Source: Mycobacteriales bacterium
Lineage (GTDB): Bacteria > Actinomycetota > Actinomycetes > Mycobacteriales > SCTD01
DNA: 64,000 bases
NCBI GenBank assembly: GCA_030447385.1
Contig: JAUJOY010000001.1
Span: forward strand, 528,565 to 592,564
Direction of reading: 5' to 3'
Part shown: piece by piece, positions 38,578 through 45,659 of the stretch
How the letters are laid out: each line of letters begins with the position of its first letter
Position numbering within the stretch: the first letter of the stretch is position 1
Position numbers and translations under genes: made by a program
Notes under the pieces: generated by a model
The model's input: only the letters and a program-made list of their open reading frames with translations
What the model was told of the DNA's origin: nothing
Databases searched by the model: none

Positions 38578-39828
<1,251 letters not shown>

Positions 39829-40465: not shown

Positions 40466-40963
40466 TCAGCCCCGCCGCCGCCCGAACCGAGCAGGCACAG
40501 CCGGCGCCTCCAGGACGAGGTCGTCCAGCACGAGGACCGCCCCGTCCTTCGTACGCTCCGCCAGCCGTCGGTCGTTGGTGATCAGCACAGCCTGCGCCTC
40601 CGCGGCGGTGGCGAGGACGACGGCGTCGGAGTGGGAGAGCCCCTCGTCGCCGTGCACCTGCGCCGCGACCGCGCCGAGCCGGGCCGCCAGGCTGGCGACC
40701 CGGGTGGTCATCGGCAGCACCGTCAGTCCGGGGAGGGCTTCGAGCGCCCGGGCGAGGGCGGTGCCTCGCGCTGTGGCGCCCTGCGCTCGGGGCTGGGCGA
40801 GCAGCTCCTGGACGACCAACGCCGGGGTGACCACCCGCCGTTCGCCCCGCTGGGCCGGCCGCAGCACCTGCTCGACGAGGAACCGGCCCCGGTCCGAGGA
40901 AGGCTGCTCGAACAGGTAGACGAAGCAGTTGGTGTCCAGCGCGACGACGTCAGGCAGGCGCAC
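40466..40963 (-). CDS. PIN-domain toxin (VapC-like)
   Basis: A 165-residue PIN-domain RNase. The four-acid site is visible: D in VVALDTNCFVYLF (residue ~9), E in TPALVVQELL (~53), D in LSHSDAVVLAT (~113) and D in VLITNDRRLAE (~131). These proteins cut specific RNAs when the paired antitoxin is lost. The start overlaps the 3' end of the antitoxin gene by 14 bases, the usual antitoxin-then-toxin order. It is directly next to the accessory polysaccharide locus, typical of stabilising modules. Confidence 0.85.
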   Translation of the reverse strand: MRLPDVVALDTNCFVYLFEQPSSDRGRFLVEQVLRPAQRGERRVVTPALVVQELLAQPRAQGATARGTALARALEALPGLTVLPMTTRVASLAARLGAVAAQVHGDEGLSHSDAVVLATAAEAQAVLITNDRRLAERTKDGAVLVLDDLVLEAPAVPARFGRRRG

Positions 40964-41198
40964 TCTCGAACCCGTCGTCGCGCTGGATCCGCTGGTAGGC
41001 GACCGCGTCCTGGCCGGCGAACAGGCCCCGGCCGGCCTCGATCAACCGCAGCAGGGGGTCCGACTCGACCTTCTCGAGCACGAGTCGACCGAAGTCGTCG
41101 AGCTGGGCGTGCAGCATGTCCCCGTCACGCACCCCCATCCGGCGCCGCAGCTCGAGCGGGATCACGACCTGAGAGCGTTGGCCCACGCGGATCTCCAC
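40950..41198 (-). CDS. AbrB/MazE-type antitoxin
   Basis: An 82-residue protein with an N-terminal swapped-hairpin DNA-binding domain (EIRVGQRSQVVIPLELRRRMGVRDGDML) and a C-terminal toxin-binding part (LLRLIEAGRGLFAGQDAVAYQR). The start is the GTG at 41198, preceded by AGGGGG at good distance; longer forms upstream are not supported. The 8-bp palindrome at 41224-41231 just upstream is a candidate autoregulatory site. Confidence 0.8.
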   Translation of the reverse strand: MEIRVGQRSQVVIPLELRRRMGVRDGDMLHAQLDDFGRLVLEKVESDPLLRLIEAGRGLFAGQDAVAYQRIQRDDGFESAPA

Positions 41199-41223
41199 AG
41201 GCAGACCCCCTTTCGTCTGCACT

Positions 41224-41231
41224 GTGTACAC
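41224..41231. promoter_or_regulatory. Palindrome upstream of toxin-antitoxin operon
   Basis: GTGTACAC is a perfect palindrome 26 bases upstream of the antitoxin start. This is a usual position for antitoxin autoregulation, but 8 bp alone is weak evidence. Confidence 0.35.
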
Positions 41232-41362
41232 CCTGCTGTGGGTGCATTGCCCCACTTCGCCCGCTGTGAGCGTGGGTTCACGTAGCTGGAACCCTCCACC
41301 GCGGTTCCGCAGATTCCTACCTGACAGACGGCGCTGCGGCACTTACGCTTGTCGCACACGGG

Positions 41363-41453
41363 AAAGGAGGTGATCCAGGATCAGTATTTCTTGGACTCGT
41401 GAGGTGGCTGTCCGCTAGGACGCCGTAGCAAGGACCGCTTGCTGGATCACTCC
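41363..41453 (+). ncRNA. Candidate structured RNA with Shine-Dalgarno / anti-SD closing stem
   Basis: 41363-41378 reads AAAGGAGGTGATCCAG, an exact complement of the 16S rRNA 3' end. At 41442-41453 lies CTGGATCACTCC, which pairs with it (12 bp, one bulged G). Between them fold two hairpins: GGC(T)GTCC/GGACGCC with loop GCTA (41406-41424) and AGCAAG/CTTGCT (41427-41443). The SD would be sequestered in the closed form. A minimal frame GTG ATC CAG GAT CAG ... TGA (41370-41402) encodes a 10-residue peptide. The 3' half (GCCGTAGCAAGG...CTGGATCAC) also resembles the 1492-end segment of 16S rRNA. A full rRNA gene is absent. Whether this is a regulator, a leader or a relic is unknown. Confidence 0.45.
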
Positions 41454-41496
41454 GCGCCTTCTACGGGCGCAGGCGAATCCACAGACAGGCACCAGG

Positions 41497-41557
41497 CCCC
41501 CGGGCGCCGGACATCGTCCAGCCGGCCCTCCGACCCGTCGGAGGAAGCGCCCGGGGG
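41497..41557 (-). terminator. Nested hairpins downstream of phoD remnant
   Basis: Outer stem CCCCCGGGCGC (41497-41507) with GCGCCCGGGGG (41547-41557). Inner perfect 8-bp stem CCTCCGAC/GTCGGAGG (41527-41544). It lies right after the phoD reading end and before the RNA candidate. Confidence 0.6.
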
Positions 41558-41580
41558 TCCGCCTTGCCCACAGCCCGCCT

Positions 41581-43160
41581 TCAGACCGGGTTCAGCCCCG
41601 GGCGCCCCTCCTCGACCACGAAGGAGGCCCGCGTCGAGACCGGCGCGCCGGGCTGCTTCACGTACGGCAGGACCTTGAAGTCGGCCCGCATCTGATCGGC
41701 CGTGAAGCGGGTCGAGACGTAGCCGCGCTGGGAGTTGGCGAAGCGGATGTGCGGGTTCTCGACCAGCTGCCCGTCGGTGGCGCGGGTCCGGTCCGACCCG
41801 TCGGCTCCGCTGGTGATCGACGAGGTGACCAGCTCGACGCCCACCGTCGCCGAGGCCGGGTCGTCGAAGTTGGCCTTGAGGTCGTTGGCGTAGTGCCGGT
41901 GCACGCGCCGGTGAGCACCACGGGGTTGCGCACGCCGCGGGCGGCGATGCCGGCGAGAACCCGGTCGCGGGAGGCCTTGTAGCCGTCCCAGCCGTCCATG
42001 CTGACGCGCTGCTCCCGGGCCGAGCGCGAAGTCGCGCTGAGCGAAGAACACCTGCTGGCCGAGCACGTCCCAGGTGGTGCTGGAGGCGCCGAGGCCGTTC
42101 AGCAGTCACTGCTCCTGCTCGGAGCCGGTGATCGTGCGCGAGGGTTCCAGCCGCTGCGAGCATCCCGACGTGGCGCCGTCGCCGCAGGCCCGGTCGCTGC
42201 GGTACTGCCGGGTGTCGAGCATGTGGAAGCTCGCCAGCTGCCCCCACTGGACGCGGCGGTACAGCTGCAGGTCGATGCCCTGCGGGACCGACGTCCGGCG
42301 CAGCGGCATGTCTCGTAGTAGGCCTGGAAGGCGGCTGCCCGGCGCTGCAGGAAGTGGGGCTGCGGGATCTCGGGCTTCTCGGGGACCTCGTCGGCCCAGT
42401 TGTTGTCGACCTCGTGGTCGTCCCAGATGACGACCCAGGGCGCGACGGCGTGCGCGGCCTGCAGGTCCGGGTCGGACTTGTACTGCGCGTGCCGCTGGCG
42501 GTAGTTCGCCAGCGTCTCGGTCTCCGGCCCGGCGTGGTCGCGCACGTTGCCGCCGGGCGCGTTGTAGACCCGGGCCTTGTACTCGTAGATGTAGTCGCCC
42601 AGGTGCAGGACCAGCTCGGGCTGCTCCTCCGCGAGACGTCGGTAGGCGGTGAAGAAGCCGTGCTCGTACTGCGAGCAGGACGCGAACGCCATCCGCAGGG
42701 AGTCCGGCCGGCCGTTCAGCGCAGGCGCGGTACGGGTGCGGCCGACCGGGGACAGGTGGCCTTGCGCCCGGAACCGGTAGAAGTGCTCCCGGCCGGGCTC
42801 GAGCCCGGCCAGCTCCACGTGCAGGCTGTGTGCCGACTCCGGACGCGTCTGCTTCGTCCCGTGGCGCAGGACGCGGCGGAAGCCCTCGTCGCCGGCGAGC
42901 TGGCACTGCACGGGGATGACCCGCTGCGGCACGCCGCCGAGGCCGTCCTCGGCCAGCGGCGCGGACGCGAGCCTGGTCCACAGCACCATCCCGTCCGCAG
43001 ACGGGTCACCGGAGGCGACTCCGAGCTGGAAGGGCTCGCCGAGGCGGCCGGAGCGGGGGTTGCGCGGGGCGGCGCCGGCGAGACCGCCGGGCAGGGTGGC
43101 GACGGCAGCAGTCGTCAGGCCCGTGACGAGGAACGAGCGGCGAGACAGGGATGTGGGCAA
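41581..43160 (-). pseudogene. phoD: PhoD-type alkaline phosphatase, broken
   Basis: The start TTG (43160, after GGAGGAG) gives a twin-arginine signal peptide (SRRSFLVTGLTTAAVATLPGG). PhoD parts follow: FQLGVASGDPSADGMVLWTRL, FASCSQYEHGFF, LHLGDYIYEY, WDDHEVDNNW, RRTSVPQGIDLQLYRRV and WDVLGQQVFFAQRDF, then LTG.VHRHYANDLKA and EGRPGLNPV. The product would be secreted by Tat and cleave phosphodiesters. Frame changes occur near 42312, 42003 and 41912, and a TGA sits where Trp is expected (42106-42108). So at least four lesions exist, and the enzyme cannot be made. A PHO-box-like element lies upstream. Confidence 0.85.
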
Positions 43161-43223
43161 GGGATCTCCTCCGGAAGGCTGGAGCGCGACCTTGCCGGGC
43201 CCCGGGTGACGGGCGCGGCGCCA

Positions 43224-43256
43224 TCGAGGAGAAGTCCGGGTGAACGTCCGGCGAGC
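43224..43256 (-). promoter_or_regulatory. Candidate PHO-box half site upstream of phoD
   Basis: On the minus strand GTTCACCCGGA (43235-43245), a close match to the GTTCACC-type 11-bp unit of actinobacterial PhoP boxes, lies ~75 bases upstream of the phoD start. The flanking 11-mers (GCTCGCCGGAC and CTTCTCCTCGA) match poorly. Confidence 0.4.
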
Positions 43257-43273
43257 CTGAGGTGCTGGGCGAC

Positions 43274-43789
43274 CTACCGGTTCAGAGCGAGGACCCGGGC
43301 GGTGTCCAGCGGGTACTCGCCCAGCGTCGTCGGGACCGGCCCGGCCAGCAGGCAGGCTCCGGTCACGAGCATCAGTGCGCCGACGCCCAGCCCGATCCCG
43401 ACGGCACGGCGGCCGGTGGCTGCGCCGGCGTACGCCCATCCGCCCAGCAGGAGCGAACCCAGCGCGACCAGCACCGGTGAGGGTCCGGTGTGGATCGAGA
43501 TGTGCCCGAGCCACAGGTCCATCGACGGCTCGTGCGGCATCCGCGCGTAGCGGAACATCAGGTCCGGCACGATCGAGAGCAGCTGCCCGCCGACGAGGGC
43601 AGCGGCAGCGGGCACGCGGCGTCCCGACGTCGCAGCGATCAGGGCCGCGACTGCGAGCCCCAGCCCCCACCCGACCTGCTGGTGCAGCAGCCAGTGCCAC
43701 CACGTGCCGTAGCTGTCGTAGGTGAGCGCCACCACGAGCTCGAGCGAGAGCAGCCCGGCCCAGGCGGCCAGTGCGCCGAGCCGCTTCAT
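43274..43789 (-). CDS. Polytopic membrane protein
   Basis: A 171-residue protein with about five hydrophobic helices: LAAWAGLLSLELVVALTY, GWGLGLAVAALIAATSG, AALVGGQLLSIVPDLMF, VLVALGSLLLGGWAYAG and VGIGLGVGALMLVTGACLLAG. Between helices are His-containing loops (TWWHWLLHQQ, HISIHTGPS). Resemblance to DUF-type actinobacterial membrane proteins only; no catalytic motif. Start ATG 43789 overlaps the stop of the upstream gene (4-base overlap), so both are co-translated. Confidence 0.6.
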   Translation of the reverse strand: MKRLGALAAWAGLLSLELVVALTYDSYGTWWHWLLHQQVGWGLGLAVAALIAATSGRRVPAAAALVGGQLLSIVPDLMFRYARMPHEPSMDLWLGHISIHTGPSPVLVALGSLLLGGWAYAGAATGRRAVGIGLGVGALMLVTGACLLAGPVPTTLGEYPLDTARVLALNR

Positions 43790-44795: not shown

Positions 44796-45635
44796 TCAGC
44801 CCTGCTGCACAGCCGTCTCGAAGGCCTCGCGCAGCGCGGCGGTCACCGGTCCGAGGCCCAGCTCCCGGCCGTCGAGCCGCAGGACCGGCGCGACCCCTCG
44901 TACGCTCGAGAGCAGCATCACCTCGTCGGCCGAGCGGAGCTCCTCGACGGTGCCGGCCCGGGTCTGGACGGGCACCTCCACCAGTCCCAGCGCGACCGCG
45001 ACGGTGGTCCCGGCAAGGATGCCGACCTCGTCCGGCGGCGGCGTCACGAGCCTCCCCCCGGTCACCCAGGCGACCGTGGCGGTGGGTGCCTCGAGGACGT
45101 ACCCGTCGCTGCTCACCCAGACGACGTCCTGGGCCCCTTCAGCCTCGGCAGCGCGGATGCTGGCCATGTTGACCGCGTACGACGTCGACTTCACGCCGCC
45201 GAGCAACCAGGGGGCGCTGCTGCGCACGCCGGCCGGCACGCCCAGGGTGAGGGTCACGACGCTCACCCCGTGCAGCCGCGCCGACAGCGTCTCGGACGGC
45301 ACCGGCGCGACGAGGGCGAACCCCACGGGGCGACCGCCGGGCGGCCCCTTCGTGCAGGTGAGGCGGAGCATCCCGTCGTCCGCGTCGTAGGCATCGGTGG
45401 CGAAGCTCGCCAGCTCTGCCCACCCGCCCGGCAGGGGGATCGCCAGCCGGGCCGCCGAGCGGGCCAGGCGCTCGAGGTGCAGCGAGAGGAAGGCCGGTCG
45501 CCCCGACGCCACCCGCAGCGTCTCGAACACCGCCTCGCCCCGTGCCACGCCGAGGTCGTCCGCCCGCAGGATCGGCGTCGTGGGGTCGACCAGCCGCGGG
45601 CCGCCTTCCAGCAGCGCGAGGACGGCTCCGGTCAC
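44796..45635 (-). CDS. Class IV aminotransferase (ADC lyase/branched-chain type)
   Basis: A 279-residue PLP-fold-type-IV protein. Visible are the GEAVFETLRV region (residues ~33-42), FLSLHLERLARSA, the PLP Lys in GGVKSTSYAVNM (~147), EGAQDVVWVSSDGYVLEAPTATV and LRSADEVMLLSSVRGVAPV. The set fits 4-amino-4-deoxychorismate lyase or D-amino-acid/branched-chain aminotransferase; PabC-like is most likely given length. It is divergent from the Fur-family gene with only 24 bases between, so both promoters overlap. Confidence 0.8.
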   Translation of the reverse strand: MTGAVLALLEGGPRLVDPTTPILRADDLGVARGEAVFETLRVASGRPAFLSLHLERLARSAARLAIPLPGGWAELASFATDAYDADDGMLRLTCTKGPPGGRPVGFALVAPVPSETLSARLHGVSVVTLTLGVPAGVRSSAPWLLGGVKSTSYAVNMASIRAAEAEGAQDVVWVSSDGYVLEAPTATVAWVTGGRLVTPPPDEVGILAGTTVAVALGLVEVPVQTRAGTVEELRSADEVMLLSSVRGVAPVLRLDGRELGLGPVTAALREAFETAVQQG

Positions 45636-45659
45636 GGGTCGAGGCTAGTGTCCGGGGCC

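Follow-up and report, generated by a model that had tools for sequence, protein, structure and literature searches.

The 64,000-nucleotide stretch of DNA analysed here (the window) carries a predicted stand-alone RNA gene of about 210 nt, a member of the Ms_IGR-5 family, in which ribosome recruitment and RNA folding appear to be interlocked. Comparison of homologues shows the arrangement: an extended Shine-Dalgarno sequence (SD) lies between helix P0 and the GUCC/GGAC helix H1, followed by a mini-ORF with conserved start, frame and stop, the last codons of which are part of helix P2. We give about even chances to the reading that this RNA traps ribosomes, which refold it as they translate, its output in trans being a guess.

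Results and Discussion

The RNA (Table 1) matches Rfam family RF02471 (Ms_IGR-5) over the whole length of the model (positions 1-184) with 71.9 bits (E 2.9e-15), above the Rfam gathering score of 45 bits, and this is the sole Rfam match in the window. The element belongs to a known Rfam family and is hence not a new RNA. The Rfam model finds it in 8 of 9 genomes of the genus, 22 of 24 of the family, 254 of 299 of the order and 70 of 396 of the phylum; no match was obtained in 14 control genomes. With a new model, R1, based on an alignment of 57 diverse homologues (A1), the family was detected in 142 of the 396 phylum genomes, including lineages missed by the Rfam model. The roughly 235 homologues, a set that includes divergent copies and is counted as sequences, not as independent events, have a common architecture that is unrelated to 16S rRNA except for the SD complement. 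A mobile or phage origin was considered and rejected: the homologue pattern had no match in viral contigs, and phage and plasmid collections gave short partial matches only.

Table 1. Features of the Ms_IGR-5 RNA and its surroundings in the window.
Feature	Positions	Strand	Basis or remark
Whole RNA, Rfam RF02471 Ms_IGR-5	41356..41565	+	covariance-model match, single copy in genome
Candidate promoter CTGACA, 17 nt, TACGCT; start near 41356	41321..41349	+	homologues keep TANNNT there
P0 5' strand CACG, partner 41398-41401	41357..41360	+	covariation
Extended SD, complement of 16S 3' tail (GGGAAAGGAGGTGATCCAG region)	41361..41378	+	18 bp, -34.3 kcal/mol
H1 5' strand (A/G)UCC, partner GGAC 41393-41396	41373..41376	+	nearly invariant pairing
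Mini-ORF ATC AGT ATT TCT TGG ACT CGT GAG GTG GCT GTC CGC TAG (12 codons + stop)	41380..41418	+	start/frame/stop conserved
GGAC, H1 3' strand, possible alternative partner of GUCC 41516-41519	41393..41396	+	possible competition
P0 3' strand CGUG (codon 7 + G of codon 8)	41398..41401	+	covariation
P2 5' strand GGUGGCUGUC (codons 8-11)	41403..41412	+	two-sided changes; in MFE
Proposed anti-SD CTGGATCACTCC, in variable loop	41442..41453	+	not in MFE
Conserved GCGAAUCC box directly before P2'	41473..41480	+	alignment A1
P2 3' strand (P2') GACAGGCACC	41484..41493	+	one G-G mismatch in window copy, common to family
3' hairpin GGCCCCCGGGCGC...GCGCCCGGGGGTC, inner loop with GUCC (41516-41519)	41495..41559	+	MFE
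Sugar-nucleotide dehydrogenase-like gene	38578-39828	-	
PIN-domain toxin + MazE/AbrB-type antitoxin, divergent from RNA gene	40466-41342	-	
PhoD-like phosphatase gene split over two frames (N-terminal 42099-43703, C-terminal 41581-42066)	41581-43703	-	
Aminotransferase class IV gene, 3.4 kb from RNA	44799-45644	-	

An earlier note on this DNA had described an exact complement of the 16S 3' tail, and this observation is confirmed. The sequence AAAGGAGGTGATCCAG at 41363-41378 has no second match in the window even when 3 mismatches are allowed (0.23 expected by shuffling), and the exact 16-mer occurs twice in the genome, namely at the RNA locus and, on the complementary strand, at the genome's own 16S tail, which ends ...GCGGCTGGATCACCTCCTTTCT. 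The complementarity is far beyond chance, because the duplex with the own tail is the best among all sites sampled on the two strands of the window, and the next unrelated site reaches -24.5 kcal/mol. Within the family this pairing ranges from -25.8 to -34.3 kcal/mol, with a median of -30.1.

Behind the SD, 233 of 235 homologues contain an ATG, GTG, TTG, ATT or ATC in frame with a stop and without interruption, whereas the other two frames, which were not selected for in locus gathering, give counts of 1 and 0. The mini-ORF has 10-17 codons, starts 7-13 nt past GGAGG and has its stop at a constant position in the RNA. In this stop slot, 15 bases past the start of GAGGTG and likewise not selected for, 201 distinct homologues have TAG (177), TGA (17) or TAA (7), and never a sense codon. 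Many loci were collected or located by GGAC...GTGAGGTG patterns, so that the invariance of those particular letters is partly by construction. We also saw the mini-ORF in 39 of 40 divergent genomes picked up via R1, some of them from lineages already within the alignment of this model. In 8 divergent loci the stop is one base closer to AGGUG, which changes the reading frame with respect to the RNA motif, and each of these loci has a matching start (for example TTG CAT AGC ACC AGT GGA GGT GGC AGT AGC TAG). From the conserved start, frame and stop, the features expected of the ORF in a dual-function sRNA, we strongly infer that the mini-ORF is translated. The earlier note had suggested a leader with a 10-residue peptide; it had not located the conserved ORF, which in the window has 12 codons from ATC.

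Start codons other than ATG are used in 187 of the 235 mini-ORFs. The ATC of the window recurs in L045/L093, with ATT in the same slot in L049 and L070; altogether ATC or ATT occupies the start slot in 10 of 235 homologues including the window (41380-41382), rare starts that stand behind a near-perfect SD. UAG terminates 203 of 235 mini-ORFs (86%). Among nearby long ORFs that are likely genes, taken from the fetched loci and from the window, it ends 92 of 543 (17%), and TGA is the dominant stop. Possible reasons for this preference (window stop at 41416-41418) are RF1 dependence or pairing of GCUAGC.

The encoded peptide behaves differently from the ORF that frames it. Codons 2-4 are variable at all three positions and codons 5, 7 and 12 almost only at the first, and the GAG GTG codons show no variation, third positions included, their letters being partly fixed by the locus-gathering patterns. 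Such a pattern is expected from RNA pairing, since GGAC is part of H1, codon 7 with the following G is part of P0 and GGUGGCUGUC is part of P2. Peptides of the type ...RT(R/C)EVA(A/V)R are common among the Actinomycetia mini-ORFs; other lineages have unrelated peptides, for instance LHSTSGGGSS, whose frame differs with respect to the RNA motif. Both the substitution pattern and the frame change speak against selection on the peptide sequence. Start, length and stop are kept but the peptide is not, which suggests that translation itself, rather than the peptide, is used by the RNA.

Evidence for the helices comes from paired changes. In P0, codon 7 and the next G pair with the four bases that lie 9-6 positions upstream of GGAGG, and changes occur at every position: pairing is found in 203 of 235 homologues, whereas shuffled partners average 93 and never exceed 106 (1000 shuffles). 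The main pairs are CACG/CGTG (93), CACA/TGTG (55) and CCAG/CTGG (17), and minor ones are CGAC/GTCG (7), CACT/AGTG (6) and CCAC/GTGG (6), as well as CTTC/GAAG, CGTA/TACG and CGTG/CACG. Many of the unpaired cases look like one-base register shifts. H1 is nearly invariant, with 97% of cells paired and no two-sided change; the A in the 5' strand of the window copy breaks one pair and improves the 16S pairing. An extension of H1 was rejected, as its 1.25 bp hardly exceed the 1.07 bp expected by chance. P2, GGUGGCUGYC/GRCAGYCACC, comprises 10 bp with two-sided compensation at six pairs and 96.5% of cells paired, a percentage that is inflated by the choice of the P2' ends partly by complementarity. 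Taken jointly, P2 and H1 are 96.7% paired versus 34-41% after sliding. The comparison shows that the last codons of the mini-ORF are sequestered by the compensated stem P2; a short ORF that overlaps RNA structure is a trait of cis-acting leaders and attenuators.

Further downstream the word GUCC, mostly 20-26 nt past P2', is present in 162 of 162 homologues, with a shuffling expectation of 73, and 143 of them have it in a hairpin loop. This loop GUCC could rival the SD-side GUCC as the partner of GGAC. The 3' hairpin itself is probably a terminator without a U-run. In the MFE fold of the window copy (z = -4.05), P2 and the 3' hairpin are formed, together with a hairpin whose loop holds the start codon. 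The GCGAAUCC box at 41473-41480 resembles the 3' half of the tRNA T-loop (CGAAUCC).

We propose that docking of a 30S subunit, by way of the long SD:anti-SD duplex, would open H1 and P0. The ribosome would then initiate at a start codon that is usually weak (in most copies TTG, GTG, ATC or ATT), translate the 10-17 codons and terminate at a stop, mostly UAG, whose placement would let the ribosome hold P2 by its 5' strand. At this point P2' could switch partner, as could the GCGAAUCC/GUCC elements, and translation would serve as the motor between a closed and an opened state of the RNA. Docking and translation are proposed because their signals are conserved, and the trans output is a guess. 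Less certain is that the opened 3' half might act in trans on RNA or protein, and that this action might report ribosome availability or the capacity for initiation and termination. We would put slightly under even chances on the complete scheme, an ancient phylum-wide RNA that recruits ribosomes by the 16S tail, has a sequence-free mini-ORF translated solely to refold it and reports in trans in its opened form. That ribosome and RNA structure interplay in some way is likely.

In the sources surveyed Ms_IGR-5 is catalogued as an sRNA without function; it now has a testable anatomy, with a hyper-SD flanked by helices that covary or are conserved, and with an ORF of which start and stop are kept phylum-wide and the peptide is not. 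This questions the non-coding reading of Ms_IGR-5 and widens its known range. If our reading is true, there would be an RNA class whose function is being translated, in the phylum of Mycobacterium and Streptomyces, and it would offer a direct handle on how such cells might sense ribosome availability.

Other explanations share part of this evidence. The RNA may be a ribosome sponge, in which the long pairing and the weak start mainly serve to sequester 30S subunits or free anti-SD tails and the mini-ORF just releases trapped ribosomes. The strength of the pairing throughout the family and the many non-ATG starts agree with such a role, which we nevertheless regard as rather unlikely: it leaves the fixed stop position, P2 and the conserved 3' half unexplained and would require very high abundance. 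We give less credence to a dual-function RNA or small mRNA with the 10-17-residue peptide as its product. Conservation of start, frame and stop and the common Actinomycetia peptide would fit, but the variation tracks the RNA helices, and the peptides of other lineages are unrelated and lie in a different frame. A similarly improbable case is a cis leader, in which the next gene would be transcribed or translated under the control of mini-ORF and stems, in the manner of leader-peptide attenuation; the combination of hyper-SD, short ORF, stem over the ORF end and 3' hairpin is indeed attenuator-like, but the neighbours vary among lineages and are often convergent, and in the window the next gene is the broken phoD on the opposite strand. 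Finally, an untranslated structured sRNA with SD complement and ORF as structural by-products would suit the Rfam class (sRNA) and the strong helices. The near-universal in-frame start and stop, set against 1 and 0 in the other frames, and the fact that start codons replace one another, as do stop codons, make it very improbable.

Two further readings go back to the earlier note, of which the discrete RNA element, the extreme SD and a short ORF are borne out and the specific SD/anti-SD closure is not. It had proposed a translation switch in which the SD is hidden by an anti-SD copy, CTGGATCACTCC, in a 12-bp stem. The complementary sequence does exist, but it forms 9 bp, a one-base bulge and 3 bp instead of a continuous helix. 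Similar words of the CTGGATC type are restricted to a subset of the family (L045, L049, L051, L041 and close copies), where they stand in the variable loop; 0 of the 7 other copies of the own genus have one, so that within the genus no anti-SD strand is conserved. The stem also crosses the conserved P2 and is missing from the MFE fold, and we rejected it; such a switch is hardly credible for this RNA. The note had also seen a resemblance between the 3' half and the 16S rRNA terminus and considered a relic of a 16S gene. Short stretches, GTAGCAAGG...CTGGATCAC, are locally alike, but they are confined to the variable loop and missing from relatives. The rest is a full-length RF02471 match with some 235 homologues of non-16S architecture, and the homology to 16S does not extend over the element. 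A search of the window for rRNA gave no match, in line with the note's remark that no rRNA gene surrounds the element, and we consider the relic refuted by the family alignment (A1) and its probability negligible.

Homologues of the RNA have been met before. One is transcribed in S. lividans (PMC8079986), one forms a transcription unit of the sRNA kind in S. avermitilis (PMC8780764) and one is annotated in M. smegmatis (PMC10454040), where IGR-5 is credited to Li et al. 2013, as cited in PMC10454040. Small-RNA transcription is on record for the Streptomyces and mycobacterial homologues. Homologues in M. abscessus and M. smegmatis are ribosome-protected (PMC4974804), with the authors' caution that sRNA footprints may stem from other RNPs. 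The window RNA and Ms_IGR-5 (RF02471) are alike in the SD complement, GGAC, GUGAGGUGG, GCGAAU, the 3' hairpin and the single copy. Unlike the anatomy presented here, the Rfam entry describes an sRNA with a consensus structure without P0 or P2 and with no annotated ORF. A conserved ORF without a conserved peptide, P0 and the phylum-wide range are absent from the Rfam match and the literature surveyed; a prior mention of the ORF in Li et al. 2013 is possible. Regulatory uORFs and leader peptides, of which toiL upstream of topAI in E. coli is one example (PMC12121999), likewise have a short ORF overlapping RNA structure, and their fold is altered by the position of the ribosome, as may be the case here. 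They act in cis on the next gene, and Ms_IGR-5 has no conserved downstream gene. Peptide-coding dual-function sRNAs (PMC5521070) also combine a small RNA with a translated short ORF, translation being a prediction in our case; unlike theirs, the Ms_IGR-5 peptide sequence is not conserved. 6C RNA (RF01066) and Ms_IGR-5 are separate families. 6C RNA is a C-rich loop antisense RNA. Like Ms_IGR-5 it is stand-alone, conserved across Actinobacteria and reported among the ribosome-protected sRNAs (PMC4974804).

A promoter at the listed site and a transcript start near 41356 are probable, judged from the sequence; a scan with standard consensus promoters and terminators found nothing. Across the compared homologue loci there is no conserved gene downstream of the RNA, and thus no conserved same-strand target as expected for a cis leader. 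We read the RNA as a stand-alone gene because its neighbours differ between lineages. In mycobacterial and Rhodococcus-type loci it often follows an aminotransferase class IV gene (pabC-like) and often faces a convergent gene of the THAP4-like/nitrobindin family. In four Pseudonocardiaceae-like loci it is followed by a dihydroorotate dehydrogenase gene, and in three loci of the own genus (L035, L110, L111) a sugar-nucleotide dehydrogenase, named by sequence only and a relative of the gene at 38578-39828 of the window, lies directly downstream on the same strand. In the window, the RNA lies between the PIN/MazE-type pair and the broken phoD, much as the earlier note had placed it, the split phoD being either a pseudogene or the result of sequencing errors. 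The aminotransferase class IV gene of the window (44799-45644, minus strand) is possibly a remnant of the old gene order seen in mycobacteria.
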